DNA of 18,085 nt, taken from assembly GCA_001303705.1 (NCBI GenBank), contig LJUI01000051.1, positions 1 to 18,085 of the forward strand. The letters are read 5' to 3'. The position numbers and the translations under genes are program-made. The DNA comes from a candidate division TA06 bacterium SM23_40 (GTDB lineage: Bacteria > LJUI01 > SM1-40). Shown piece by piece: positions 1 to 16,063 of the stretch (the first letter of the stretch is position 1; every line of letters starts with the position of its first letter). The notes beneath the pieces were generated by a model. It made no database searches and had not been told where the DNA came from. It saw only the letters and a list, made by a program, of their open reading frames with translations.

Positions 1-746
1 CCAGTGGCCTCGTCAAAGCAGCAACCACCGGCAACGCTCGACGGTATCCCGGAGTTCACCGTACACGACACGCCCGTGTAGACCAGGGCAACAGGGTCAA
101 ACTGCCGCAGATTGTAGAGATTTTGCTCGAACACCCACAGCCACGGACCATCAGGGCTGTTGTTGTCATACGCCATCCCGTACTTCGCATACACGGCGTC
201 TGGCGTCGTCGTCAGAACCACGAGCGGCGGGGTCGTGAACGAATAGATCGGATCGTAGAAGTCACCAGTCCACCAGACACCCGTAACCTGATCGTACGCC
301 AGCGCACGGTTGGGATTCTCAGGACCAGGGTTCGACGTGACGTAGTTACCGAACTGGTCATACGCGTCGATGTTCGTTGAGAAACTACCCCAGATGTACT
401 CCTCAGTCTCCGCCAGGTCGCGGAGACCCCAACCATTCGATCCGGCCATCTGCTGATACGTCCCGACCAGATTACAGTTCTCGTCGAACTGGTAAATGTA
501 GTTCGGATCCAACCCGCTGTTGCCGCCGGTCACCCAGTGATATCCCCACTTCCACTCGTTGCCGAGTATGTGGTTGTCACCCGTCGGGGCCTCCATGAGC
601 GGATCGCAGAAGTCAGCCGGGGTAACCTGGCCAGGCTCCGCGCTCCGATCCTCGGTAACCGGCGCTACTTTCACAGCACTGGTGGCATAGGCCAGACTCG
701 CCAGCATCACAGCCATCAGTCCTGCCAGGAAGATACTTTTCCTCAT
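1..746 (-). CDS. Secreted propeller-like protein, paralog A (3' end cut by window edge)
   Basis: The open frame runs from ATG at 746 off the left edge: 248 codons with no stop or frameshift. The N-terminus is a signal peptide (basic MRKS, then a hydrophobic stretch ending near ATSA, about residue 23), so the product is exported. The rest is nearly identical to the N-terminal 218 residues of the gene at 1301-2995, so this is a tandem duplicate. It differs in lacking a four-residue WAWD insertion near residue 51 and in keeping 36 residues (about 183-218, including GMAYDNNSPDGPWLWVF) that the other copy lacks. Those residues read like a beta-propeller blade. A GGAGG lies just 5' of the start. 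It has its own promoter at 1138-1166 and a leader of about 385 nt. Function unknown; a secreted or surface role is inferred. Confidence 0.85.
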   Translation of the reverse strand, partial: MRKSIFLAGLMAVMLASLAYATSAVKVAPVTEDRSAEPGQVTPADFCDPLMEAPTGDNHILGNEWKWGYHWVTGGNSGLDPNYIYQFDENCNLVGTYQQMAGSNGWGLRDLAETEEYIWGSFSTNIDAYDQFGNYVTSNPGPENPNRALAYDQVTGVWWTGDFYDPIYSFTTPPLVVLTTTPDAVYAKYGMAYDNNSPDGPWLWVFEQNLYNLRQFDPVALVYTGVSCTVNSGIPSSVAGGCCFDEAT

Positions 747-1131
747 CTTCCTCCCCCCTCCTGTTATGTTACCCATTCCCTACGAAGCGCGTTGCGAGCT
801 TCTGGACCCTCCCGGGATCACGCCATCGACGCCAGACCGGGAAGCTCCCGGATCATGCCTGATCCGATAAGCTCGCACCTCCCATGAGCCCGCCAGACGA
901 CTCCCGTCATCACCCCCTTTCCACGACGGCCACGCGGGCCCTGACTCTGCCGCCGTCGGTTGGTGTGACAGCCTCCCTACGTACTCTACAAACGAGCTGC
1001 TACTGAGGTAGCTCGCTCTCATAGGGACAAAAGACCCACCTCTGCCGTGTCCCGCTCCGATCGCGGTTTCTCCAGAGCTCGTAGCCACATAGGAATACTC
1101 CACCCGGCAGGGCAGGCCTCACCTCTTGATG
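747..1131 (-). promoter_or_regulatory. Long structured 5' leader of paralog A
   Basis: No credible gene lies between the promoter and the start at 746. The RNA can form a closing stem (869-876 with 794-801, 8 bp), a hairpin with 6-bp arms at 850-855/860-865, a hairpin at 837-842/846-851 that shares two bases with it, and an upstream stem at 924-930/952-958. All four recur in the leader of paralog B, and one pair has changed A-T to G-C with pairing kept. The first 23 nt near the transcription start (1106-1128) match the B leader at 20 of 23 positions. I do not recognise it as a named riboswitch. Structure is inferred from two copies only. Confidence 0.6.
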
Positions 1132-1137
1132 AGCGCC

Positions 1138-1166
1138 ATTGTACGACTCTCGCCGAACCCTGTCAA
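1138..1166 (-). promoter_or_regulatory. Sigma-70-type promoter for paralog A
   Basis: On the minus strand, -35 TTGACA (1161-1166), a 17-nt spacer and -10 TACAAT (1138-1143). The -35 is perfect and the -10 has one mismatch to consensus. The predicted start is near 1131, giving a leader of about 385 nt. Both hexamers and the spacer length are identical to the promoter of paralog B, but the spacer sequence differs. Confidence 0.85.
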
Positions 1167-1223
1167 GCGAAATGTAAGCCATCGATCACGCCCCCTCAAA
1201 AGTGGCCAGTGACACATAGTGAA

Positions 1224-1251
1224 GCGCGGGGGTTCATCACAACCCCCGCGC
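1224..1251 (-). terminator. Strong hairpin between paralogs B and A
   Basis: A perfect 11-bp stem (1224-1234 with 1241-1251, arms GCGCGGGGGTT/AACCCCCGCGC) with a 6-nt loop lies about 50 nt past the stop of paralog B and before the promoter of A. Only a short T-run (TT) follows on the minus strand, so it may be a weak intrinsic terminator or a 3'-end stabiliser. A smaller 5-bp hairpin with a GAAA loop (minus strand) sits at 1260-1273. Confidence 0.55.
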
Positions 1252-1300
1252 CTCTCGAACGCTCTTTCGAGCGGTTGTCGGCTCAGCCGAGTCCGCTGCC

Positions 1301-2995
1301 CTAGAAGGCAACAAACTCCATCACGACATCCGCCAGGAAGTCGGTCCCACCGAGCTCGAACGACGTGCCAAGCGTCTTGCCTGTGCCGAAATTGGCAATG
1401 CCGATCTGATCCATGTTGTCCGGGTTCTGGAACACGAGCTCAGCCGGCGGGATCGGTGAGAGTTCATCGATCCAGCTGTTCTCGCCGAAGTACGGAGAAA
1501 CCAGACCCCCAAGACCCGGCATCAGCGTGTTCGCCACGCCGTTGACCGTGAACAGATCACTACCGCCGTCGCCTACAGCCATGATCCCGAACGCCGGCCC
1601 GAAGTCATGCCCGCCAACCATCGGATCGTAGTACCAGAAATCGCCGCCCTCAGCATACACCTTGCCGCCGGCTGCGATGTAGGCCTCGATCTGCAGGGCC
1701 TCGGGCGCGCCCGCCGCGATGAACCCGCTGTTCGGGTAGATGCCCATGAGAACAAACAGGCCCATGTGGTCGGGCAGGTTCCAGTCGCCCAGGTTGACCA
1801 CAAACTCGTGCGTGTGGCCCATAGCTGTCAGCACATCGGCAATCGGCTGCCCGCTGATCGGGGTCATGTCAAGCTCCCAGATCAGGAACTCGGGCGGCAT
1901 GTACACGTCGATGATGCAGAGGTTGTGCTCGATGTAGATGCTCTGCTCAGGCTGACCAGGACCACTCCAGTCCGGCCAGCAGTGGCCGCCGCCACCGACC
2001 TCGGTGCCCAGAGGTGTGGCCATCGGGACGGTGAAGTAGAACAGTTCCGTGTAGCTGCCCGGCCCGACCGGACCAACCATCGTGTTCTGGATGAACCGAG
2101 GATGGCCAGCAGGCTCCCTACCAAGGCCGCCGCCAACGAGGAACGTGTTCGACATGCCCCACGGACCTGTGTCCACATACTTCCAGTTCACGGTCAGCTC
2201 GATCACGTCGCCGGGCAGATAGTACTCGGCATCCGTGGAAACGTCCGTGACCTTGCAGTATGCCGTGTCACCAGCACAACCCTCGGTGATGTCCACCGCG
2301 AACAGATGGTCCGGAGTACCCTGGATGATACCGTAGATGTCACCAGTGGCCTCGTCAAAGCAGCAACCACCGGCAACGCTCGACGGTATCCCGGAGTTCA
2401 CCGTACACGACACGCCCGTGTAGACCAGGGCAACAGGCGTCGTCGTCAGGACCACGAGCGGCGGGCTCGTGAACGAGTAGATCGGATCGTAGAAGTCACC
2501 GGTCCACCAGACACCCGTGTCAGGATCGCGCGCAAGCGCGCGGTTGGGATTCTCAGGACCGGGGATCGACGTGACGTAGTTGCCGAACTCGTCATACGCG
2601 TCGAGGTTCATCGAGAAACTACCATAGATGTAGTCCTCGTCCTCCGCCAGATCGCGGAGACCCCAACCATTCGACCCGGCCATCTGCTGATACGTCCCGA
2701 CCAGATTGCCAACATCGTCGTACTGGTAGATGTAGTTCGGGTCCAACCCGCTGTTGCCGCCGGTCACCCAGTGATATCCCCACTTCCACTCGTTGCCGAG
2801 AATGTGGTTGTCACCAGTCTGAGCCTCCATGTCCCAGGCCCAGAGCGGATCGCAGAAGTCGGCAGGCGTCACCTGGCCAGGCTCCGCACACCGATCCTCG
2901 GTAACTGGCGCTACTTTCACAGCACTGGCGGCATAGGCCAGACTCACCAGCATCACAGCCATCAGTCCTGTCAGGAAGATACTTCTCCTCATCAT
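1301..2995 (-). CDS. Secreted two-part protein, paralog B (propeller-like N-terminus, GATase-like C-terminus)
   Basis: 564 residues. There is a signal peptide (MRRSIFLTGLMAVMLVSLAYAASA), then a Trp/Tyr/Gly-rich region to about residue 240 that looks like partial beta-propeller blades. A beta-rich middle with Cys pairs follows. The C-terminal part (about 370-564, with GLFVLMGIYPNSGF and AYIAAGGKVYAEGGD) resembles the GATase1/ThuA-like fold found in some secreted bacterial proteins. That similarity is my recollection and no catalytic residues can be assigned. Two ATGs lie in tandem; the second (2992) matches the start of paralog A and is better spaced from GGAGG, so 2992 may be the true start. 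Relative to A, this copy lacks 108 bp in frame after residue P187 and has a 12-bp insertion encoding WAWD. No sorting signal is obvious at the C-terminus. Confidence 0.9.
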   Translation of the reverse strand: MMRRSIFLTGLMAVMLVSLAYAASAVKVAPVTEDRCAEPGQVTPADFCDPLWAWDMEAQTGDNHILGNEWKWGYHWVTGGNSGLDPNYIYQYDDVGNLVGTYQQMAGSNGWGLRDLAEDEDYIYGSFSMNLDAYDEFGNYVTSIPGPENPNRALARDPDTGVWWTGDFYDPIYSFTSPPLVVLTTTPVALVYTGVSCTVNSGIPSSVAGGCCFDEATGDIYGIIQGTPDHLFAVDITEGCAGDTAYCKVTDVSTDAEYYLPGDVIELTVNWKYVDTGPWGMSNTFLVGGGLGREPAGHPRFIQNTMVGPVGPGSYTELFYFTVPMATPLGTEVGGGGHCWPDWSGPGQPEQSIYIEHNLCIIDVYMPPEFLIWELDMTPISGQPIADVLTAMGHTHEFVVNLGDWNLPDHMGLFVLMGIYPNSGFIAAGAPEALQIEAYIAAGGKVYAEGGDFWYYDPMVGGHDFGPAFGIMAVGDGGSDLFTVNGVANTLMPGLGGLVSPYFGENSWIDELSPIPPAELVFQNPDNMDQIGIANFGTGKTLGTSFELGGTDFLADVVMEFVAF

Positions 2996-3603
2996 CCTTC
3001 CTCCCTACTACTTACATTGTCCATTTCCTACGAAGCGTGGTGCGAGCTTGGTAACCCTCCCGGGATGACGTCATCGACGCTCCACCGGGAAGCTCCCGGA
3101 TCGCGCTCGATCCGATAAGCTCACCCCTCCCATGAGCCCGTCACACGGCTCCAATCATCACCCCCTTCCTCGACGGCCAACCGGGCTCACGTTCTGCCGC
3201 CGTCGATTTCGTGTTCTCAATCTTTAGGTAACCGGATACATCTATCACTCTCCCGGTGGGAGAGCTATGAGCCTTGGGGGTGGCCCCACATCACATCCCC
3301 GGGTTCGGCTACGCTTCACCAGTCGTCCCCGCCGAAGCGTCCAGCCGCTTCCCTGCCCGAGGTTCACCACAACCCCACCCAATGACGAACTATCCACCGG
3401 CCTCGGAAACAGCCGAGCCACCCAACCTCCGCCAGGGACACGTGTCCGCACGGCCCCCCTCCGGTCCTCACCAGAGCCACCGCCCGAGGCTCGTCACCAC
3501 AATATGTACAAACCCGCCATTGCCATGTCTCTCCCCGTGGGCCTCATGGCTACGCCACGCATAGAGAAACATCACCTAGGCAGGGCGGGCTTCACTTCTT
3601 GGT
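2996..3603 (-). promoter_or_regulatory. Very long structured 5' leader of paralog B
   Basis: About 600 nt with no convincing gene. The part nearest the gene (3029-3210) is homologous to the A leader. It keeps a closing stem at 3117-3124/3042-3049, a hairpin at 3098-3103/3108-3113, a hairpin at 3085-3090/3094-3099, and a stem at 3170-3177/3199-3206 (8 bp). The part nearest the promoter also matches A (3579-3601). The middle (about 3211-3560) is absent from A and holds further hairpins, including 3248-3254/3258-3264 (7 bp, 3-nt loop), a GCCATG/CATGGC pair, and the palindrome GGACACGTGTCC. RNA structure is predicted by eye. Confidence 0.6.
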
Positions 3604-3700: not shown

Positions 3701-5422
3701 TCAGGGCGTCACCTCGAAGTCGAATATATCGTCGTCGAGAAGCGCATCCGGACCGTGGCCCAGTGCGGCACGGTACGTATAGGTGCCCGCAGGAGCTGCC
3801 GAGGGCACCTGGTGTGACCGGTGCACCACCAGGGTCTCCGCGGGAGCCAGTGTCACGAGCACCGGTCCGGCAATCGGGTTCCCCGAGTACGGCCGGCCAT
3901 CAGGAAAAAACACCTCGGCCAGACCCCATACCGACTGAACGCTATCCGTACGATTGATGACCGCCACCGTGACCCCGAGGGTGCCGCCCGGCTGCACCGT
4001 CTGAGAGTCCGGTTCCAGGAAGAGCGAAACATCGGGGAATGCCAGTTCAGCGGATACTTCGAGATCGATCCTCCCCCACCCGTAGTCCCAATCCGGTCCG
4101 GGCGTGCCGAGATCGACCGCGCCCTGTTTCAATACAGTCTCGAGCTGATCGAGAGACAGTGTCGGATTGGCATCGATGAGAAGTGCGACGCCTCCGGTAA
4201 CGTGAGGCGTCGACATCGACGTGCCCGATTTGAAACCGTATCCCCCGGGGACCGACGACCATACATCCACGCCCGGGGCCGTCACGTCCGGCTTGACGAC
4301 GGAAGGATCGCACGCCGAAGGCCCGCGTCCGCTGCTGTTACATATGACATCGTCCGAATCGGTGTTGCCCACGCCGACGGACTCGAGGTAGTTGCCGGGA
4401 CTCCTCGCCGAGGCGTACCCCGGACCGTAATTATGCGTTGCGAACGAGGGGAATATCCCTGCCGCAACCCACGCCTGGACGCTCGCGAGATACGTCGTCT
4501 CGCAGCCATAGCTCGAAAATCCCCACGAGTTGTTGACCGCGATCGGAGCGTCATCGGTGGCGGGGTCGCCGTCAGGGTCCATCATCCATTCGAATATCTC
4601 CAGAAAGGCGGACGTTGTGCCCGAACCGTTATCGTCCCAGGCCTTGGCAGCGATCCACTTCGCCCCGGGAGCCACACCGATATCCGTACCCCCGGCATCG
4701 CCACCTACCATAGTACCCGTCGTGTGAGTGCCGTGTCCTGTCCACGGCCCTGCCAGGTCGACCGGTGTGGAGTGCTGCCCGTAGGGGTCGAACCAGCTGT
4801 TCGATCCGCCCCGGTATCGGCTTTCCAGATCCGGGTGGGTGACATCGACGCCGGTATCGAAGCTTCCGACGACGAACCCGCTACCATCATATCCCATGGC
4901 CCACACCTCGGGCGCGTTCACCTTCGCGATATTCCACTCGCTCGACTCGTCCCGGGGGACGCCCTCCCCCTGCTCGTGCTCCGGGCCTGGCATAGGTCGG
5001 TCGAGATAGATCGCCGCCACCTCCGGCCGCTCAGCGAGACGCGAGATGACAGGGGGAACGGCACTGAGCGCCATGCCATTGAACACCCAGAACGGCCGTA
5101 CATCGCGAACACGTCCTGCGTCTCGCTCCCGTTCAAGCTCCTTGAGCGTTCCCCGTTGGGTGCGATCGGCAGTCTCCTGAAGAGCTTCGATGACTCTCAT
5201 CAGCCGCTCGCTCCGCGGCCCCGCATCGAGGCCGGTGATCACTTGTGAAAGGTCTGTCTGATCGACGAGGTGTACGATTATGGGCACCATCTCGGAAGGG
5301 CCCCCGACCGCCATTATGTGACCGAGCTCGGGCTCGATCTTCCCGGCACCGGCAGAGGACCACATGACTGTAACGATGGTCGCGACGGCAACCGGAAGGA
5401 TGGCAATTCCCCTGATCGACAT
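3701..5422 (-). CDS. Secreted subtilisin-like serine protease (S8) with C-terminal Ig-like domain
   Basis: 573 residues. A signal peptide spans about 1-26. A region at about 45-140, ending AIYLDRP, fits an I9-type inhibitor propeptide. The S8 catalytic domain spans about 165-460 with Asp189 (FDTGVDVTHPDL), His230 (GHGTHTTGT), oxyanion Asn331 (in ATHNYGP, where most family members have AAGNSGP) and Ser402 (GTSMSTPHVTGG). All four key residues are present, so an active exported protease is likely. The tail (about 466-573) is a beta-rich Ig-like domain ending in FDFEV, and its last 45 residues resemble the end of the gene at the right edge. The start is ATG at 5422 with GGGAG six bases upstream. 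It has its own promoter at 5536-5565 and appears monocistronic. Substrate unknown. Confidence 0.93.
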   Translation of the reverse strand: MSIRGIAILPVAVATIVTVMWSSAGAGKIEPELGHIMAVGGPSEMVPIIVHLVDQTDLSQVITGLDAGPRSERLMRVIEALQETADRTQRGTLKELERERDAGRVRDVRPFWVFNGMALSAVPPVISRLAERPEVAAIYLDRPMPGPEHEQGEGVPRDESSEWNIAKVNAPEVWAMGYDGSGFVVGSFDTGVDVTHPDLESRYRGGSNSWFDPYGQHSTPVDLAGPWTGHGTHTTGTMVGGDAGGTDIGVAPGAKWIAAKAWDDNGSGTTSAFLEIFEWMMDPDGDPATDDAPIAVNNSWGFSSYGCETTYLASVQAWVAAGIFPSFATHNYGPGYASARSPGNYLESVGVGNTDSDDVICNSSGRGPSACDPSVVKPDVTAPGVDVWSSVPGGYGFKSGTSMSTPHVTGGVALLIDANPTLSLDQLETVLKQGAVDLGTPGPDWDYGWGRIDLEVSAELAFPDVSLFLEPDSQTVQPGGTLGVTVAVINRTDSVQSVWGLAEVFFPDGRPYSGNPIAGPVLVTLAPAETLVVHRSHQVPSAAPAGTYTYRAALGHGPDALLDDDIFDFEVTP

Positions 5423-5543: not shown

Positions 5544-5565
5544 ATAATTCTTCCTCGGCTGTCAA
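5536..5565 (-). promoter_or_regulatory. Sigma-70-type promoter for the 3701-5422 protease
   Basis: On the minus strand, -35 TTGACA (5560-5565), an 18-nt spacer and -10 TAACAT (5536-5541). The transcript start would be about 105 nt before the ATG at 5422. The leader has G/C-rich hairpin potential, for example the CCTGGC/GCCAGG arms around the GGGGGG run. Confidence 0.7.
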
Positions 5566-5599
5566 GAAAAAACGGCGCCCCCGGCGCAACAGACCCATC

Positions 5600-6335
5600 G
5601 CATTCGCCGGGTCGAAGGGCCTAAACGGTTAAGAGGGGACGCAGAGCGAAGGAAGAAGGTGCGCCGTACGAAGGGCTGCTGAAGACAAGAGTGTACAGTG
5701 TCAAAAGCGGCCTGCGGCGTACAAGGCGCACACAGAGTGAGAAGCAGAGGAAAGTAGGTGAAGGATGTGGAGTGTGACGAGGAGCGGGGAGGATGAGAAG
5801 AGTGTGCAGTACGAGGGCCGCCTCCAGCATCAAAATGAGGCGGGGCGCGTGAGAACGGCGCAGTGTAACAGGAACGGTACAGGATGAAGACGGTGTGCTG
5901 CAGAGAACCGGCCCCCAGCATGAGAACGCCGCACGTAGCGAGAAGGAGATCGAGTCTGCGAGAGGTATAAAGAAGGCAAGGAGCGCGCAGTGCGAGAGGC
6001 ATATGTAATATGAAGGCGCTCCGGATTACGCAAGAGGGACCATGCAACGTGAGAAGGGACATCGAGTGCGTGCACGACCTACGCGATGAGAACAAGGCAG
6101 ACCACGTGACGGGTGTCGGGAGGGGGCAGGGAGCGCGCAGTACAGAGAAAAGTCCGCGCCGGGAGAAGGAACGTGCATGGTATGAAAAAGGTGCATCATG
6201 AAGGTGGCGCGGAGCGTCAGAACCAGATGCGACAGGAGAAGAAACGAGCAGGGAGAGAGGAAACGAGCCATAGCAGTACGAAGATTCTCAACGCATCGAG
6301 GCGAACGGGGGATCCGGATGAAAGCCTGTCAGGTG
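5600..6335. other. Gene-free, purine-rich degenerate spacer (about 700 bp)
   Basis: The plus strand is dominated by A/G words such as GAGAAGG, GAGCGAAGG and GAAGGCGC, mixed with a recurring degenerate motif close to GCGCAGTRYGAG. Examples are near 5803-5815, 5857, 5981-5993, 6131-6143 and 6276-6283. The 10-mer GAGCGCGCAG occurs twice, 150 bp apart. ORFs here have the biased composition expected from such sequence, lack ribosome binding sites and match no fold I know. The spacer lies between the terminator at 6349-6396 and the protease promoter at 5565. Function unknown: it may be decayed repeat DNA, a noncoding RNA or neutral spacer. Confidence 0.6.
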
Positions 6336-7149: not shown

Positions 7150-8202
7150 CTATCGGGATGACCTCACCTTGACCGTGCCCGATCCGAGCTGGACCGGCAC
7201 GAACATCGACTTGCTATCCATCACAACCCCACTGACAAAGCCGAGAGTAGATACGCCGGCGGACAGCGCCCTGAACTTGATCCTTGCCAGGCTGCCGGAG
7301 CCCGCGACGCCTCCGTCGCCCGGATTCTCCCTCGCTACTGTCACGAAGATCCGACCTGCCGCGTTGTCGATCTGGGACTCGAAGGTAGCAGGGCGCCAGT
7401 CCTTGCTGGCGAAATTACCTTCCTTCACATTGACGGCTTCGAGAATGCCCGGGTCGAATTCGACATCGAATGATGCCCGAAAGAAGTCTGACACGTTCTG
7501 GACATTGACCTGCACGGTAACGATCTGCCCCAGCCTCGGCGACTGGCTTTGCGGGGTAAACGAGATCGAAGTCCTCGATGTCCCTCCGACCCCCGGCTCT
7601 TCTCCGGTCTCATCCCAGATCGGCCCAGCCTGGACGGACTCCGCGGCCCCGAAGAACCACCCGCTCTGGGTATCGGGCGGCGCGAGCCAGTTGCCCCACG
7701 GGTCCTCGGGCTCCGCAGAGGCATCGAGCACCGCACCGAAGGGCCCTGTCGCTTCCTGGACGAGTTCCGTCACCTCCTCGGGCGGTGAGATCCTGGAAGG
7801 CTCGGCGCCTTGCTCTCGAGCTGTGGTCTCCGAATCGGATTCCGATGACCACCCGATGTACACCGAGGCCCCCTCCTCCCCCCGGCTCCCAGCATCTTCA
7901 GCAACTGTGGACCGGCCCTCGAGCGCCGGCGACTCTCCCTGCCCGGAGCTGTCCTCATCGGTCGGCGTCGCGCCGGGCCGGCCGGGACCGACGGCGGATG
8001 CCGCATCATCGGCACTCGCTTCAGCACCCGGCCCACTGCCTGCCGGCAGTCGGGCCTCCTCTTCGAGCGAAGCCACTGAGATGCTGCGAAGCTGATCCAG
8101 GGTCCGCTGCCTGCTCGCAAGAACTCTCCGCTCGGCGGCATACGCAACGAGCCCCGCAATGAGCAGGACAACTAGAATTATCGTACTGCGTCTGGTGCCC
8201 AT
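7150..8202 (-). CDS. Membrane-anchored cohesin-domain protein
   Basis: 350 residues from ATG at 8202. I reject the longer frame to 8553 because the promoter at 8344-8372 lies inside the extension and because GGAGG precedes this ATG by about ten bases. MGTRRS plus a hydrophobic segment (about 8-22) form a signal anchor. A short basic/helical stretch follows, then a low-complexity acidic, Ser/Gly/Pro-rich linker (about 45-210). The C-terminal domain (about 213-346) has the pattern of cohesins: SPRLGQIVTVQVNVQNV, FRASFDVEFDPGILEA, LARIKFRAL, then a final strand. Cohesins bind dockerins in cellulosomes. In other bacteria such domains are found on surface and secretion-associated proteins. No dockerin-like sequence is seen in this window. 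The product likely sits in the inner membrane with the cohesin domain outside the cytoplasm. Confidence 0.85.
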   Translation of the reverse strand: MGTRRSTIILVVLLIAGLVAYAAERRVLASRQRTLDQLRSISVASLEEEARLPAGSGPGAEASADDAASAVGPGRPGATPTDEDSSGQGESPALEGRSTVAEDAGSRGEEGASVYIGWSSESDSETTAREQGAEPSRISPPEEVTELVQEATGPFGAVLDASAEPEDPWGNWLAPPDTQSGWFFGAAESVQAGPIWDETGEEPGVGGTSRTSISFTPQSQSPRLGQIVTVQVNVQNVSDFFRASFDVEFDPGILEAVNVKEGNFASKDWRPATFESQIDNAAGRIFVTVARENPGDGGVAGSGSLARIKFRALSAGVSTLGFVSGVVMDSKSMFVPVQLGSGTVKVRSSR

Positions 8203-8592: not shown

Positions 8593-9849
8593 CTACGGAA
8601 TAGACAGTGCCTGGGCGGCATCCAGTCTCCCCGCACCGAGCTGGCCAGCGAAGCTCGCGTTGAGACTGTCGATATCGACCGCCGCATCCAGAACGATGTC
8701 CATGACCTCGTCATGGGCGAGTCCCGGAGCCAGCGCCCACACAAGGGCCGCAGTCCCCGATATGAACGGAGCTGCCATAGACGTCCCGTCCCACCGAGCA
8801 CACAGATCATCCGAGAAGGCACTGTAGATGTCTACTCCGGGAGCGGTCAGAGAGACGAGGTCGCCATAATTGGAGAACGGCGCCTTCACGTCGAGAGTGT
8901 CAGTGGCGGCCACCGCATAGGTGTGTGGGCTCGCTGCCGGCATGTATTCCGGATTGGGGCTCACCGTATTGCCGGCCGTACAGACGATCAGGCACCCCGC
9001 ATCCCTGGCATATGCAAGAGCCTCCTGAAGCACCGGCGAGGTCAGCTGCATCCCGAGGCTCAGATTGATTATCCGGGCCTCCTCTTCCACAGCCTTGGCA
9101 ATCCCCTGGATGAGGTTGAAGAGCGTCCCGCGACCCTCCGCGTTGAGCACACGATAGACGGCGATCTCGCAGTCAGGTGCAACCAGCGCGATGATGCCTG
9201 CGATGTGAGTGCCGTGTCCACGGGCCTCGTCGACATAGCCATCCCAGTCGTTGTCGATTCCGTCCGGCTCCTCAGACGGATCGGGGTCATCGTCGACGAG
9301 GTCAGCTCCAGCCGTGCAGAGATGTCCGAGGAGCAACCAGTGATCGAGGTCGGCGCCTGTATCGAGAATGGCGACGCGTATTCCTTCGCCAGTAGACACC
9401 TCATGAGCTTCAGTGAGGCGGATCTGATCGACCGCGCGCTGCCACTCATAATCTTCGAGCGACGGATCGTTCTCGATGAATGGCATGCTCGACTGGTCTG
9501 CCTCGGGAGCCTCGAGCAGGAAATTCCTCTCCGTATAGATGATCCCGTCGAAATCCCTGATCTGTCCGATCACCTCGGACTCTGAGCTGTACCCCGGCAG
9601 CGTGACCCGGGCCACTCCTAAGACGGGGATCTCCTCGGCGGTCGTCGTCCCGAAGGTGATGTCTATCGTTTCCGTAGACATGCCCGGCTCCAGGACGACT
9701 AGCACTTCGGACGGCACGTACTCGACGCCCCCTCCCTGCGCCCTCTCCACCATCGGAAGGAGAACGAGAAGACCTGCGATCGCAACCGCAAGAGCTGTAC
9801 CGACCCGGAGGCGCGCGATACCATGAAGTTGTGAGACCGCGTCCTGCAT
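8593..9849 (-). CDS. Subtilisin-like serine protease (S8) of the sigma/CHAT operon
   Basis: 418 residues from ATG at 9849, chosen because AGGAG stands seven bases upstream; frames to 9882 and 10053 lack such a site and overlap the CHAT gene. A hydrophobic segment (about 17-33) ending LPMVERAQGG is a signal peptide or anchor. A short prodomain (about 45-115) follows, ending IIYTERNFLLEAP. The catalytic domain has Asp163 (AILDTGADLDH), His212 (GHGTHIAGI), oxyanion Asn294 (CTAGNTVSP) and Ser357 (GTSMAAPFISG). An acidic insert (DDDPDPSEEPDGIDNDWDGY, 186-205) may bind calcium. Unlike the 3701-5422 protease there is no C-terminal extra domain. It is last in the operon, 46 nt after the CHAT gene. 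An export-side effector, or processing of an envelope target, is inferred. Confidence 0.93.
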   Translation of the reverse strand: MQDAVSQLHGIARLRVGTALAVAIAGLLVLLPMVERAQGGGVEYVPSEVLVVLEPGMSTETIDITFGTTTAEEIPVLGVARVTLPGYSSESEVIGQIRDFDGIIYTERNFLLEAPEADQSSMPFIENDPSLEDYEWQRAVDQIRLTEAHEVSTGEGIRVAILDTGADLDHWLLLGHLCTAGADLVDDDPDPSEEPDGIDNDWDGYVDEARGHGTHIAGIIALVAPDCEIAVYRVLNAEGRGTLFNLIQGIAKAVEEEARIINLSLGMQLTSPVLQEALAYARDAGCLIVCTAGNTVSPNPEYMPAASPHTYAVAATDTLDVKAPFSNYGDLVSLTAPGVDIYSAFSDDLCARWDGTSMAAPFISGTAALVWALAPGLAHDEVMDIVLDAAVDIDSLNASFAGQLGAGRLDAAQALSIP

Positions 9850-9895
9850 GTCACTTCTCCTTTCGGACGAGGCACCCGACATTCGAGTCTCGCCA

Positions 9896-12739
9896 CTAGC
9901 CCCTACCCAACAGCACGAACGGAGCCCAGTAGTAAGGATGTGCGAATTCTCTCTTCGTCTCCAACATGGCTCCACGTAGCGAGCCACTCTTCGAATGTCC
10001 CGCCTTGAGTCGGCGATAGAAGTTCCCCATGATAATGGCTGTCGACTCGTCATGCACCTGCCAGAGGCTCACGACGAGCGAACGGACGCCAGCGTGCAGG
10101 AAGCCCCGAACCAGCCCGACCAGTTCATCGCCCCTCAGGACTTTTCCCACACCCGTCTGGCACCCGCTCAATGTAACCAGAGAAGCGTCCAGGCGCAAGT
10201 CGTAGAGGTCATAGATATTGAGCCATCCGTCGGCGAGCTTGAGTGACGAGAACATGGGGTTGCCCCCGCGGAATACCCCGTGACAGGCAAGATGTATCAT
10301 CCTCCCATCGCGCCCGTGCTGCCGCAGCTTATCGACCCCTGCCTCGTTTCCCACAAAAAGCAGCGCGTCATCGTAAATACGAGCGATCTGCTCGACCTCC
10401 GTGCTGATGTGGGGCGCGCCGTTCCCATCGACACCCAGGATCAATAACCTCTGCTCGTCCTCTTGACCATCTCCATCGCAGAGTCTGAGCACGGTCGCGC
10501 TCGGCGAGTAACGCACTTCGTGTCGATCGATGAGGAACTGCTCCCCATCGAATACCGCGTGGAAGGGAACGTAATGGAGTTGCCCGTGCGGGACGATCAC
10601 GAGTCTCCTCCCGTCGATCCTTCTCGCCATCGGCTCGACGAGCTCGGCATTGAGACGGCCGAGCGAGCAGAGAACGCTTTCGTACAAATGAGAATTGTGG
10701 CGCCGAACATACTCATCGCCGAGCTGGAATTTCTTGAGCTGGAATTGGAGCCTCGCCATCAGCCGATCGACGACCGCAACATCGGCGAGATGATCATATA
10801 TGTCGATGCTATCATGATCCATGGCGAACGCCATCACCCGGTCGCGAGCGATGTAGTATTCGATGAGCGTCTCGTCGGCGCCCAGGGATTCCCTGATCTT
10901 CTCAATCGGGATCGTCGACGCGCTGTGCAGGGAAGCGAGTTCGAAATCCTTGTGCCGCAGTTCTCTGAGGATATATGCGATTCTTCGCTCGGTTTCGGTG
11001 ATCTCCTGACGCAGATCCGATATTACTGATAGCGAGCGCCTCGTCCCCTGAGTGTCCAGATCGTTGAGCTGACTGTAGCGGAGATTGAGCCGTTCTCGCT
11101 GTTCCTGCAGCTCATCGACCAGCCGGGACGGGACGCGTCTCCCGTTCTTCACCTCTGCATGCGGACGGTATGTGAGCAGGTCAACGAGGGCTTTCGACTT
11201 CCCGCGCTCGACGTACTCGAGTGCCTTGTGGATGCTCCGCTGGGTACCGCCGCGGAGATAGTGGAGGACGATGTCCTCATACACACGGAACTTATCCGTA
11301 AGGAAGTTGGCCTTGTACTCATCCGCCCCGATCGTGCTCCACATCTGCTCCACCGATTCGACTGCGCGACGGAGGTACCGGCTCGCCTTTCCTCTCTCAC
11401 CCTCTCGCTCGCTGATCTTCCCCAACAAGTGATAACACTGGTAGTTGAGCCAGGGGGTCTCGTCTGCGGCAGCCCCACGAAGAGCCCGGCGGCACAGCGC
11501 GAGGGCATCGGCATGCTTGCCCAATTCAAATGATGCGCGGGCCATCTCCAGCCTGGCATACCGTCTCTTCGTCACCAGGCCAGCCCCGGCGAATACGTCA
11601 TGCGCCCGACGTGCGATCCGCAGCGCCTCGCGGACCTTCCCCTCCCGGCGGAGCAGCGTTGCCATGTACAGGTCGATCATAGCAGTCCATACATGGTTAC
11701 CTTCACGTCCGAAGATCCTGCGCGCGGCTCGCAAGTGTTCTAAGGCCTGACCGTATTGCCCGAGATGGATCTCTGCAATCGCCTGATTCGAGAGGGCTCT
11801 TCCCGCCTCATATGCCATACCGAGTTCATCGAATCCCAGCCTCGCGGCCTCACAGAGGTGCACGACATCGGCATGCAGGTTCAGTCGGAGATAGACCTCA
11901 GCCTCATCCAGGTTAGTGAGCGACACATGCCGCACGTCCCCCAGCTCCTCGAAGATGTGACGTACATCGTGATAGCTCTGGATCGCCTGATGGTATCGGT
12001 CGGTGAGGAAGAACAGATACGCGATATTGTAGTCGACCTGCGCTACTCTCGGCCCCTGACCGCGCTCGGCAAACTGGCCTCTGGCCGACTGATAGAGCGC
12101 CAGGGCCTTGTCGAATTCACCGAGGCTGGTGAGGACGTTCGCGCGGTTGAAATCGACGAGTGCTTGTTCGTAGCTCTTGCCGAGTCTGCCGAAGGTCCTC
12201 TTCGCCCGGCCGTAGCAACGGAGGGCCTCACGATACCGGTCGAGCCGGTGATAGATGTTCCCAGTGTTCGTATCGAGCTTCGCGACGAGGCTGGCCTTCC
12301 GATGCTGCTTGAACACCGCTCTCGCCCGGTCGGCAAGCTTGAGGGCACGATTGTACCGACCGAGATACATCAGCGCGTCGACATGTCCCATTTGAACCTG
12401 AGCCCACTCGAGATCCGACCCCTGCCTCCTGAACCACCGCGCGACCTCCCGGTAGTCCTCAGCAGCCTGCCGGTATGAACCCATGGCATGGCGCGCCTTC
12501 GCCCGAGCCCACCTGCCATGTAGGCGGATCTCGGCATCCCGGACAACGGTGCCGATCTCCAACCAGAGATCAGCCAACTCCAGCGCCCGAGAAGCATCTT
12601 TCCACAGCAGATCGTTCAGTCTTGCTGTGAGTTCCCGTATCGCACTGTGATCAAACCGCCCGCGGTGCTTGCGGATGTAGTCGCAGCGTCTCTTTCCCCG
12701 AAGGGTCTGTACACGAGCGAGCAGCGCATCGAAGGTCAT
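9896..12739 (-). CDS. TPR-CHAT protein (caspase-like protease with tetratricopeptide repeats)
   Basis: 947 residues, no signal peptide, presumably cytoplasmic. The first half (about 70-465) is a run of TPR helix pairs (for example YHRLDRYREALRCYGRAK, LGEFDKALALYQSARGQF, LGQYGQALEHLRAAR) about 40 residues apart. A helical linker (about 500-600) has coiled-coil character. The C-terminal CHAT domain (about 700-945) includes LVIVPHGQLHYVPFHAVF, the His motif IHLACHG (His820) and the Cys motif TLSGCQTG (Cys860), the predicted catalytic dyad, plus VSLWQVHDEST and YYWAPFVLLG. CHAT is a clan CD (caspase-like) peptidase family. TPR-CHAT proteins include the Csx29 protease of type III-E CRISPR and activators of bacterial gasdermins. 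No gasdermin or CRISPR effector is present here. ATG at 12739 lies 10 nt after the anti-sigma stop, with AGGTGA overlapping that stop, so the two are probably translated together. Confidence 0.95.
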   Translation of the reverse strand: MTFDALLARVQTLRGKRRCDYIRKHRGRFDHSAIRELTARLNDLLWKDASRALELADLWLEIGTVVRDAEIRLHGRWARAKARHAMGSYRQAAEDYREVARWFRRQGSDLEWAQVQMGHVDALMYLGRYNRALKLADRARAVFKQHRKASLVAKLDTNTGNIYHRLDRYREALRCYGRAKRTFGRLGKSYEQALVDFNRANVLTSLGEFDKALALYQSARGQFAERGQGPRVAQVDYNIAYLFFLTDRYHQAIQSYHDVRHIFEELGDVRHVSLTNLDEAEVYLRLNLHADVVHLCEAARLGFDELGMAYEAGRALSNQAIAEIHLGQYGQALEHLRAARRIFGREGNHVWTAMIDLYMATLLRREGKVREALRIARRAHDVFAGAGLVTKRRYARLEMARASFELGKHADALALCRRALRGAAADETPWLNYQCYHLLGKISEREGERGKASRYLRRAVESVEQMWSTIGADEYKANFLTDKFRVYEDIVLHYLRGGTQRSIHKALEYVERGKSKALVDLLTYRPHAEVKNGRRVPSRLVDELQEQRERLNLRYSQLNDLDTQGTRRSLSVISDLRQEITETERRIAYILRELRHKDFELASLHSASTIPIEKIRESLGADETLIEYYIARDRVMAFAMDHDSIDIYDHLADVAVVDRLMARLQFQLKKFQLGDEYVRRHNSHLYESVLCSLGRLNAELVEPMARRIDGRRLVIVPHGQLHYVPFHAVFDGEQFLIDRHEVRYSPSATVLRLCDGDGQEDEQRLLILGVDGNGAPHISTEVEQIARIYDDALLFVGNEAGVDKLRQHGRDGRMIHLACHGVFRGGNPMFSSLKLADGWLNIYDLYDLRLDASLVTLSGCQTGVGKVLRGDELVGLVRGFLHAGVRSLVVSLWQVHDESTAIIMGNFYRRLKAGHSKSGSLRGAMLETKREFAHPYYWAPFVLLGRG

Positions 12740-12749
12740 AGCCGATCAC

Positions 12750-13370
12750 CTAGAGCGAGACATCGCGGATATTGACATGGCCCATTTTCAGCCGGAGGCC
12801 TATACCGTACGTTGCTTCCTCGACCTCCTCGAATGCGAACTCCCCTATGGCATTAGTGAATGTGCTACCCACTTCCTCGTCTCCACGCATCAGCCGCACC
12901 GACTGAAACGCGAGGTCACCCGCCTCCCCCGCCAGCGGCAATACCTGGCCCAAGATGTCGATTGATCCCGGCCTCTCTAGCTCTCTCATCTGGAGATCAA
13001 TGTCCACGTCCTCCGCCCGATACAGAAGCTGTCGAACCTCCCCCCCCATGGTGCGCACACCCGCTGGTTGCAGGGAACTGTGGCTGTCGTAGACGAGCAC
13101 TGCCTCCAGCTCGCGATGCGCCGAAGCCCCACTCTGCTGACGCATCTTCGAATAGAGTGCGCATGCCCGCTCGATAACTTCCTTTGGAGGATCGACGAGT
13201 TCATCTGTCCTCATGAGAGCAATCAATCGGCCGATCCACGCGAGCTCCGCGTCACACGCGGGACATCCAGTCGCCAGATGCTCCTCTACCGCTCTCCTGT
13301 CCGGTTCCGACAGCTTTCCCTCCAGATAGTCAATAAGACGCTCGAACGAGACATGGACAGAATCCGACAT
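12750..13370 (-). CDS. Putative soluble anti-sigma factor: zinc-finger plus beta-sandwich domain
   Basis: 206 residues. The N-terminus resembles the anti-sigma zinc finger (zf-HC2 type): RLIDYLEGKLSEPDRRAVEEHL, then His31, Cys36 and Cys39 (H-x4-C-x2-C; the usual spacing is H-x3-C-x2-C). A helical stretch runs to about residue 85. The C-terminal part (about 133-206, with ILGQVLPLAGE, SVRLMRGDEEVGSTFTNAIGEFAFEEV) looks like a carboxypeptidase-regulatory/CnaB-like beta sandwich. There is no transmembrane segment, unlike most anti-sigma factors of this zinc-finger class. It lies 69 nt after the sigma gene and 10 nt before the CHAT gene. Sigma binding and its possible role as CHAT substrate are inferred from order and domain type. 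Confidence 0.75.
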   Translation of the reverse strand: MSDSVHVSFERLIDYLEGKLSEPDRRAVEEHLATGCPACDAELAWIGRLIALMRTDELVDPPKEVIERACALYSKMRQQSGASAHRELEAVLVYDSHSSLQPAGVRTMGGEVRQLLYRAEDVDIDLQMRELERPGSIDILGQVLPLAGEAGDLAFQSVRLMRGDEEVGSTFTNAIGEFAFEEVEEATYGIGLRLKMGHVNIRDVSL

Positions 13371-13439
13371 GTGATGACCCCCGGCTGATATTGTGGTTTT
13401 CTATGAACCAGTGCCGCGAGCGCCCAGCGGCAGCTCCCG

Positions 13440-14117
13440 CTATCGGTACCCCCTCCGCCCCAGGACCGCCCGCAGCTTCTCAAGGCATCTCGCCCTCGTC
13501 GGGCCCACGCTCCCCGGAGGGATACCGAGGCGCCGGCCGATTTCCTGATAGGAAAGCGGCTTCTCAAGATAGAATAGGTAGGTGATCATGCTCCGACAGC
13601 GTCTCGGCAACTGCTCTACTGCCCACCTGACAGTATTCTGCATCTCCAGCCGAACGAGTTCTTGCTCCGGCAGGGACCCCGAGACGACAGGATCTGTCAT
13701 CTCGTACGCAGCCCCCGCACTATTCTCTTTTCTCCTCCGCTTCTCGACCACTGTCCAGGACATGCGAGAAGCCGTCGTCAGGAGCCACGTGCCGAGCTTG
13801 GACGTCTCTCTGAGCGTGTCGAGCTTCTCCAGAAGGACGAGACAGACAGTCTGAAAGATATCGTCCGCCTCGGAGCAGGTCGCACCGCATTTGAGGGCTA
13901 CCGAGTAGATGAGCCGTCTGTACTTGAGGACGAGTTCCCCCCATCCTCTCTCGTCTCCCGCCAGACATCTCCGTATCAGCTCATCATCGGCAGAGAGTAC
14001 GTGCTGCCGCCGGCCCCTCCGCTGCACATCCGAGTAGATAGCACGCGAGGAAGGTTCTTGCGCGATTCCCCCGTAGACGTCGAACGCATGACCGATATCG
14101 CCTGAATCACTGCTCAA
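13440..14117 (-). CDS. ECF-type RNA polymerase sigma factor
   Basis: 225 residues. Region 2 spans about 43-115 (ADDELIRRCLAGDERGWGEL, KYRRLIYSVALK, EADDIFQTVCLVLLEKLD, LGTWLLTTASR). Region 4 spans about 160-220 (WAVEQLPRRCRSMITYLFYL, then the helix-turn-helix LSYQEIGRRLGIPPGSVGPT RARCLEKLRAVL). Regions 1 and 3 are absent, as in ECF factors. The frame opens at TTG (14117), with GAGGG eight bases upstream. The first 40 residues are not part of the fold, so GTG at 14027 (residue 31) is an alternative start, though with a weaker site. It is the first gene of the operon with the anti-sigma, CHAT and S8 genes. It probably directs a small regulon and perhaps its own operon; the promoter found upstream looks sigma-70-like, though. 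Confidence 0.93.
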   Translation of the reverse strand: MSSDSGDIGHAFDVYGGIAQEPSSRAIYSDVQRRGRRQHVLSADDELIRRCLAGDERGWGELVLKYRRLIYSVALKCGATCSEADDIFQTVCLVLLEKLDTLRETSKLGTWLLTTASRMSWTVVEKRRRKENSAGAAYEMTDPVVSGSLPEQELVRLEMQNTVRWAVEQLPRRCRSMITYLFYLEKPLSYQEIGRRLGIPPGSVGPTRARCLEKLRAVLGRRGYR

Positions 14118-14347: not shown

Positions 14348-14435
14348 CCAAAAAGTGAGGCTCACGGCGTCTTCTTCTCTCCGCGCTTCAGTCGTCATGC
14401 GCTTCACTCACTACGCTTTATGTTTCACTCCTTCC

Positions 14436-14540
14436 GCCTCACTCTCTGCTCGTTGCGCTTCACACCTCACTCCTTACGCCTCACTCTGTGCCCGTTGCAC
14501 TTCACCCCTCACTCCTTACGCCTCGCCCCTCAGTCCTTAC
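14436..14540. repeat. 42-bp tandem repeat in a pyrimidine-rich spacer
   Basis: Two adjacent 42-bp units (14436-14477 and 14478-14519) differ at only four positions. A third, shortened copy (14520-14540) follows. Shorter relatives of the core CTCACTCCTTACGCCTC continue on both sides (about 14400-14590). The last ones run into the 3' end of the flavoprotein gene. The minus strand, sense for flanking genes, is purine-rich here. There is no regular repeat-spacer pattern, so it is not CRISPR. Role unknown. Confidence 0.8.
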
Positions 14541-14578
14541 ACTCCAGGCTCCACTCCTAACGCTCCACGCTTCACTCC

Positions 14579-16063
14579 TTACGCCCGACGTCTCGTGGTT
14601 GTCCCTTCACGTTTTCCACCTCTATCTTCGCCTTTCATCTCTATCCCGGCCAGCCGCCGGGCCATCGCCACCTTCTCGTCGATCCCTGCGTTGGCCCAGA
14701 TGACGAGCTTCGCCCCATCAGGCGATCCACCTCCATGGTGGCACCCCGGTATGCCCGCACCAACAGTCAGCCACTCAACGAGGCGTGCTCCCCGAACGCG
14801 CGTCTCGGCATCCGATGCCGCCTTGAGATACTTCCGCACGAGCTCGCCGTATTCCTCGCTCTGGAAGTCCCTCCAGGACGGCATACAGCCGGTCTCACCG
14901 ATTCCGCCGCAAATGTCCTGCGCGATATTCCTCGTATCGCAGGGGAGCTTGGCGACCAGCACCTTGTTAACATTGGCGAGGAGCGGATCACAGATCCAGG
15001 AGCCGGAAGAGTGCTGTCGTCCCATGGCGGCCGCGGCGATTCCCAGGCCGAATGTCACCTCGTTGTTGATGCACATGTTGACGACCTTATCCCGGAACAC
15101 CTTATCGGCCAACCCATTAGCCCTCCCCACAAGCATCGCAGCCCCCACCATCACATCCCCCTGCCCGGCAACGCATGCGCCGATGGCGGATCTGTACGGC
15201 ATGATGAAGTTCATCACCGCGGGGAGTGTAAAGTCGCACTCCCCACACATGAAGACACGCTCCCGGGGAATGAAGACATCCTCGAAGAAGAGGTACCCCT
15301 GTGTGATGCCTCCTGCGTTGGAGGGGACATCAAACCCCTTCTCCAGATCTCTTAGATCGCTCGGATGTCTCGCCTCGACGATCGTGAGCCCCTCGGCATC
15401 TCGGGGGACGACAAACGAGATCGCATAATCAGCATCCTCAGCGCCGTATCGCGAGCCGGGAAGGACGAAGATCTCATTCGCCGCCGCGGCCCCGGCAATC
15501 ATAACCTTCGCGCCGCGCACTATGATCCCGTCATCGCGCCGTTCGACGACACGCAGATACATGTCGGGATCCGCCTGCTTCGAAGGCGGCAGCGTGCGGT
15601 CACCTTTCGGGTCAGTGAGAGCACCGCAGACTGCGATGTCCTCCGACTGCGCCCGGCGCAGCCAATCCATCAGTCGCGTGTGGTAGTCGGTGCCATGTTT
15701 CTCATCGATATCGTAGGTCACAGCCCACATCGAGTTGAGCCCCGTCCAGCCGACACAACGCCCACCCGTGCAGGTCCCCGTCAGGTTGAAGACGAATCTC
15801 TTCATGCGGGAGTTGGCAAACATGTCTTCCGGCTTGCGAAGTATCGAAAGATAACGAGAGATTCTCTCGCCGGTGAGATGAGACGTCGTCGTCATCATCT
15901 CTGCATATTCTCGATCGAGCGACGCCTCGTATATTCTCCCGTGGCCCTCAACAGTGCGCCTCGTGGCCGGGTGCGTTGTTACATCTTCGATCAGCTCCCC
16001 GAACTTGTAGACATTGGCACGGAGACCCCTGAGGCTCTCCTTATATTCCTCCTTCGTCTTCAT
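14579..16063 (-). CDS. AbfD-like flavoprotein (4-hydroxybutyryl-CoA dehydratase / 4-hydroxyphenylacetate 3-hydroxylase family)
   Basis: 494 residues, acyl-CoA dehydrogenase fold. Family features include MKTKEEYKESLRGLRANVY at the start, TDPKGDRTLPPSKQADPDMY, VVERRDDGIIVRGAKV, EDVFIPRERVFMCGE and CHHGGGSPDG. The true dehydratase binds FAD and a [4Fe-4S] cluster through Cys99, Cys103, His292 and Cys299 (Clostridium aminobutyricum numbering, aligned from memory). Here I see Cys98 (one residue shifted), Cys103 and Cys297, but Tyr290 where the His is expected. The segment of the catalytic Glu455 is Gly/Cys/His-rich. So the fold is clear but dehydratase activity is doubtful; a related CoA-ester or aromatic substrate is possible. 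The last about 18 residues, rich in Lys/Arg/Thr, exceed the family length and run into the repeat region. ATG at 16063 has GAGGAGG upstream. Monocistronic. Confidence 0.88.
   Translation of the reverse strand: MKTKEEYKESLRGLRANVYKFGELIEDVTTHPATRRTVEGHGRIYEASLDREYAEMMTTTSHLTGERISRYLSILRKPEDMFANSRMKRFVFNLTGTCTGGRCVGWTGLNSMWAVTYDIDEKHGTDYHTRLMDWLRRAQSEDIAVCGALTDPKGDRTLPPSKQADPDMYLRVVERRDDGIIVRGAKVMIAGAAAANEIFVLPGSRYGAEDADYAISFVVPRDAEGLTIVEARHPSDLRDLEKGFDVPSNAGGITQGYLFFEDVFIPRERVFMCGECDFTLPAVMNFIMPYRSAIGACVAGQGDVMVGAAMLVGRANGLADKVFRDKVVNMCINNEVTFGLGIAAAAMGRQHSSGSWICDPLLANVNKVLVAKLPCDTRNIAQDICGGIGETGCMPSWRDFQSEEYGELVRKYLKAASDAETRVRGARLVEWLTVGAGIPGCHHGGGSPDGAKLVIWANAGIDEKVAMARRLAGIEMKGEDRGGKREGTTTRRRA

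Follow-up and report, generated by a model that had tools for sequence, protein, structure and literature searches.

An ECF sigma factor gene in a candidate division TA06 bacterium (SM23_40) lies next to genes for a small zinc-finger protein and for two proteases of unrelated classes, one of them cytoplasmic and the other exported. The question is whether these four genes form a regulatory switch and, if so, which of the proteases acts on the sigma factor or its inhibitor. Here, the whole 18,085-nucleotide stretch of contig LJUI01000051.1 that was analyzed is called the window, and the four genes are called the module.

Four adjacent genes encode a sigma factor, its predicted inhibitor, and two proteases

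All four open reading frames are encoded by the minus strand and are adjacent, separated by 69, 10, and 46 nt as stated in the original prediction. The sigma factor (13440 to 14117) contains the sigma2 and sigma4 regions (Pfam Sigma70_r2, 2e-9; r4, 1.3e-6; TIGR02937). The listed start codon is TTG at 14117, but GTG at 14027 is the likelier start, since the resulting 195-aa protein is close in length to most sigma homologues (~193 to 204 aa). The next gene (12750 to 13370) encodes a 206-aa predicted soluble anti-sigma protein (zf-HC2; RsiW profile match; AlphaFold2 [AF2] model). It is followed by a gene for a 947-aa TPR-CHAT cysteine protease (9896 to 12739; PF12770, 6.5e-58; TPR_12, 1e-24; AF2 model) and a gene for a 418-aa exported S8 protease, or subtilase (8593 to 9849; PF00082, 6.5e-41). 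The true start of the S8 gene is ATG at 9849; the mechanically listed ORF (to 10053) overlaps the CHAT gene.

The S8 protein has a fervidolysin-type prodomain (PF22148, 4.6e-6) and the predicted triad Asp163/His212/Ser357, which is invariant in 28 of 28 sequences. A hydrophobic N-terminal export signal was recognized by hydropathy in all S8 proteins of the loci described below (35/35), several of which also have a lipobox. With an Asp/His/Ser triad and a predicted export signal, the protein belongs with the subtilases (S8).

Directly downstream of the S8 gene lies a gene for a cohesin-domain protein that is anchored in the membrane by its N terminus (7150 to 8202). Farther downstream, on the same strand, another S8 subtilase is encoded (3701 to 5422), which also carries a signal peptide. 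Tandem paralogous secreted proteins (3 to 776 and 1301 to 2995) occupy positions 1 to 3167, where DNA blocks are 83 to 100% identical, indicating a recent duplication; the complete copy has no Pfam match. Upstream of the module, imperfect 42-nt repeats are found at 14407 to 14595, and similar-looking low-complexity sequence occurs near 5562 to 6095. A reading of the locus as a defense system was considered and rejected: PADLOC gave generic subtilase matches only, no CRISPR array was found in the window, and no RAMP (Cas7-11) protein was found in the organism's own genome (~90% complete).

The four families occur together in many genomes

The original prediction depended on co-occurrence of the four families in other genomes, and dozens of such loci were found. 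Relatives of the 206-aa protein were sought by a profile search of three genome sets, namely, 297 from Acidobacteriota, 386 from mixed bacteria, and 296 from Actinomycetota, the last set having been reached via a WhiB-bearing genome, and the flanks of the matches were then examined. Among the 43 relatives with full flanks (at least 6.5 kb on each side; a few generic zinc-finger proteins are included), a sigma factor was encoded nearby in 37, a CHAT protein in 38, an S8 protease in 37, and all three in 35. The module occurs in Acidobacteriota, Actinomycetota, and other lineages, and the actinobacterial loci contain homologues of all four window genes. In ten of the Acidobacteriota, the base rate of CHAT genes is about 2.3 per Mb, at which chance association of CHAT genes with relatives of the 206-aa protein is negligible.

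The window's gene order, sigma-anti-CHAT-S8 on a single strand, was the commonest (25 of 70 rows), and the orders sACP, sCAP, CPsA, and PCsA also occurred. The sole named genome with a strong, near-full-length CHAT match was an Acidobacteriota MAG, in which homologues of all four genes are clustered in the order sigma-CHAT-anti-S8 (L032:1121-13713). No constant fifth gene family was found in the loci; GAF/kinase neighbors were common but variable. One genome (G491) carries two complete sigma-anti-CHAT-S8 modules in tandem (L128:2856-15418). A 4.7-Mb Acidobacteriota genome (G191) has seven copies of the 206-aa family and ten CHATs, and one of these copies (L100:9443-10099) is an orphan, with no sigma or CHAT gene nearby. 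Three plasmid CHATs were inspected and discarded; they lie in other contexts without a sigma factor, one of them in a CATRA-type system.

In a quick tree, the module sigma factors formed clusters apart from the generic ECF sigma factors of the same loci, and the window sigma factor grouped with those of the modules, including the actinobacterial ones. The module label changed 5 times on this tree compared with 12.2 times with shuffled labels, and some of the 5 changes come from module sigma factors near the end of a contig, which had been labeled "other." A motif search upstream of the sigma genes found no shared promoter motif above shuffles. Thus, autoregulation is unsupported and is not claimed here.

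The 206-aa protein is a predicted soluble anti-sigma factor

The AF2 model of the 206-aa protein (mean pLDDT, 90.4) consists of four helices followed by a beta-sandwich. The helical domain (residues 9 to 79; 13134 to 13346, minus strand) comprises helices at residues 9 to 16, 22 to 33, 37 to 54, and 63 to 79, and it contains the zinc motif H31-x4-C36-x2-C39 (13254 to 13280, minus strand). The protein therefore has the hallmark of zinc-binding anti-sigma (ZAS) factors, namely, His..CysxxCys within an N-terminal helical domain. Its profile matched the anti-sigma domain of RsiW (3.9e-7 over positions 1 to 77) and DdvA (1e-4). By hydropathy, the window protein has neither a signal peptide nor a transmembrane segment, and the other module anti-sigma proteins likewise have no membrane segment. 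From the domain and its place beside the sigma gene, we infer that the ECF sigma factor is held by this protein, acting as a soluble anti-sigma factor in the cytoplasm.

The N-terminal domain is not equally well preserved in all relatives. Both zinc cysteines are retained in 39 of 66 proteins. In an actinobacterial group (family f270), the helices are kept and the zinc ligands are gone, and in Streptomyces-like copies, the last helix and the beta-sandwich alone remain. Thus, classical ZAS sequestration is not universal among the modules. The C-terminal beta-sandwich (residues 87 to 205; 12756 to 13112, minus strand) is kept in every relative according to the model and the alignment. A fold search with it returned middling matches to common Ig/MG-like sandwiches only (best Z, 8.6), and no function was read from so common an arrangement. 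Csx30 was absent from both the sequence and the fold matches of the 206-aa protein, an absence that excludes no relation.

The CHAT protease resembles Csx29 and separase

The TPR-CHAT protein was modeled with a pLDDT of 86.7. It contains a TPR array (about residues 31 to 467; 11339 to 12649, minus strand; AF2 helices and Pfam TPR) and a CHAT domain (9905 to 10660, minus strand). The catalytic residues His820 (codon 10280 to 10282) and Cys860 (codon 10160 to 10162), reported as intact in the original prediction, do not vary in any of the 29 complete sequences (29/29). Over its whole length, the model matched the fold of Csx29 best (Z, 34.4), and Csx29 was also the top PDB sequence match. The protease half aligned with separase over 309 to 324 residues at 2.7 to 3.0 Å, the 324-residue alignment at 2.9 Å, with 14% identity. 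The fold matches of the TPR array included Rap and NprR, which are peptide-sensing TPR proteins; TPR arrays are scaffolds that bind proteins and peptides. The gene is the single CHAT gene in its own genome (~90% complete).

A further acidic residue, Asp897 (codon 10049 to 10051), lies 37 residues past Cys860 and is invariant among the CHAT relatives. Its position may correspond to that of an acidic S1-pocket residue of separases. In the alignment, Csx29 has a Ser at this position. The sites cleaved by Csx29 enzymes are L|D, M|K, or A|S (PMC11106740), and separases cleave after Arg (PMC4626109).

Arg106 is the candidate cut site

The most constant residue of the 206-aa family is an arginine, Arg106 (codon 13053 to 13055), which is invariant in 66 of 66 relatives, including those without a zinc finger; the motif of the proposed site is [GA]-x-R-[ST/G]. 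It lies in a loop (residues 101 to 110; 13041 to 13070, minus strand) that forms the lowest-confidence block of the AF2 model, with a mean pLDDT of 62 compared with 92 to 95 on the flanks. Because the CHAT model resembles both Csx29 and separase and separases cut after arginine, we infer by analogy that CHAT cuts the 206-aa protein after Arg106. Alternatively, Arg106 may have a role in structure or binding rather than in cleavage. Craspases cleave at non-conserved sites (PMC11106740), so a conserved P1 residue is not required for CHAT cutting. In practice, Arg106 in the substrate and Cys860 in the enzyme are simple residues with which to test the cleavage model.

A proposed switch and its alternatives

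We propose that the 206-aa protein keeps the ECF sigma factor bound in the cytoplasm until the CHAT protein senses an intracellular cue through its TPR array. Activated CHAT would then cleave the anti-sigma protein, most likely after Arg106 in the flexible loop of the beta-sandwich. The cut would free or destabilize the anti-sigma domain, and the sigma factor would activate its genes. The exported S8 protease would work beyond the cytoplasm, where it could be an output of the switch, a source of peptides that report back, or both. The predicted division into one cytoplasmic and one exported protease fits the data, with no transmembrane segment in the anti-sigma protein and a signal peptide in the S8 proteins. 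Since S8 is outside the cytoplasm and the inhibitor within it, the inhibitor is accessible to just one of the module's proteases, CHAT. We give this reading, that is, release of the sigma factor through CHAT cleavage of a soluble anti-sigma protein with S8 acting outside, a probability of roughly 0.55.

The strongest alternative is partner switching without cleavage, in which the TPR-CHAT protein binds the beta-sandwich and controls the sigma factor by complexing, and the CHAT active site serves another substrate. It would account well for the beta-sandwich being kept across all lineages, those without a zinc finger included, and for a TPR array with Rap and NprR among its fold matches, since such arrays bind proteins and peptides. 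However, the CHAT dyad is invariant, and the invariant arginine is found in the least-confident loop rather than on a confidently folded surface. We regard partner switching as possible, if rather doubtful.

In another explanation, close to that published for ECF54 (PMC8999054), the sigma factor itself is the substrate, degraded by CHAT or a different protease, and the 206-aa protein serves as an adaptor. The missing N-terminal anti-sigma helices in Streptomyces-like modules are in line with it. Against it, the window protein and its relatives in most other lineages have an RsiW-related anti-sigma domain; moreover, the invariant Arg residues of the sigma factor are in region 4, and no candidate site comparable to Arg106 was seen in it. 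This explanation is therefore unlikely.

It is similarly improbable that CHAT and S8 are mere neighbors, that is, genes that simply belong to the sigma regulon and play no part in its control. The varying gene order (sACP, sCAP, CPsA, and PCsA) and the large number of CHAT genes in some Acidobacteriota would be expected in this case, whereas the finding that lineage after lineage keeps the same CHAT, sigma, and anti-sigma families tightly conserved and the precedent of Csx29, Csx30, and CASP-sigma would not. Destruction of the anti-sigma factor by the exported S8 protease, as in the RseA or RsiW envelope stress cascades, would explain the constant presence of S8 in the module and is very hard to reconcile with the different compartments of the two proteins, the 206-aa protein having no signal peptide or transmembrane segment and S8 having a signal peptide.

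Peptide importers accompany some modules

In the proposed switch, CHAT would be activated by a cue, and a lead to its nature came from the Acidobacteriota. In ten loci (L092:615-13745, L086:1-10420, L032:1121-13713, L083, L090, L095, L105, L108, L116, and L087), a peptide-binding protein (SBP_bac_5), mostly together with ABC permeases, is encoded near or inside the module. In several of these Acidobacteriota, importer and module genes share an operon. In L092, the order is ATPase-permease-permease-SBP-sigma-CHAT-anti-S8, and no gap exceeds 161 nt; in L086, the importer genes lie between module genes. In a search of 12 genomes, such a peptide-binding protein was found at 7 of 22 loci, compared with about 0.4 expected (P about 5e-7). 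After removal of two genomes that had been added with knowledge of a match, the count was 5 compared with 0.33 expected (P about 3e-5).

These loci suggest, tentatively, a peptide-gated switch: peptides made by S8 might be imported by a dipeptide/oligopeptide ABC transporter and sensed by the TPR array in the manner of Rap or NprR, whereupon CHAT would cut the anti-sigma protein at Arg106. No importer adjoins the window module, so this is a lead only and not a property of the window. If true, extracellular protein breakdown would be wired to transcription via a caspase-like protease.

Comparison with known systems

ECF54 sigma factors have been described with conserved carboxypeptidase-like, subtilase, and CHAT neighbors, and control by proteolysis without an anti-sigma factor was proposed for them (PMC8999054). 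The window module has the same gene context (CHAT, subtilase, and a carboxypeptidase[-regulatory]-like protein), and the actinobacterial loci found here look like the ECF54 group by this context. In contrast to the published description, the window and most other lineages have a zf-HC2 anti-sigma domain, which the Streptomyces-like copies have lost. Thus, the window module is a variant of a recorded gene association, distinguished by a full zinc anti-sigma domain. What is new is that the "carboxypeptidase" protein of the ECF54 context is itself a predicted anti-sigma factor in most lineages. ECF54 sigma factors, thought to have no anti-sigma factor, are thereby recast as kin of modules in which such a factor is present, although some lineages have it in reduced form.

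In Myxococcus xanthus DdvS-DdvA, DdvA is the zinc anti-sigma factor matched by the 206-aa profile. The N terminus of PDB entry 8rot_B, a 991-aa CHAT domain-containing protein, is the DdvA anti-sigma sequence; thus, an anti-sigma factor and a CHAT protease are fused in one chain in nature. DdvA is called transmembrane in a title cited in PMC12288465. In M. xanthus, anti-sigma domain and CHAT are parts of one transmembrane chain, whereas in the window they are two predicted soluble proteins. The window CHAT protein and separase both carry a caspase-like protease half made of two parts, which follows a helical array; separase differs in being eukaryotic, in cleaving cohesin, and in being held by securin.

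In type III-E CRISPR systems, Csx30 is the inhibitor of CASP-sigma and is cut by Csx29 (PMC10028731). The original prediction drew this analogy, which held for the architecture: a TPR-CHAT protease with a His/Cys dyad and Csx29 as the best whole-length fold match, an inhibitor, an ECF sigma factor, and fitting compartments. It did not extend to membership. The window CHAT scores 61.7 bits with NF041237, below the Csx29 cutoff of 300, and no Cas7-11 was found in the ~90% complete genome and no CRISPR array in the window. The inhibitor matched RsiW and DdvA, an S8 protease is added, and Arg106 is invariant, whereas the cut sites in Csx30 are non-conserved (PMC11106740). By analogy, the window module would work like Csx29-Csx30-CASP-sigma while not being a member of that system. 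The module thus offers a CRISPR-free setting for the Csx29-Csx30-sigma logic in many bacterial lineages, which bears on the origin of the type III-E accessory genes.
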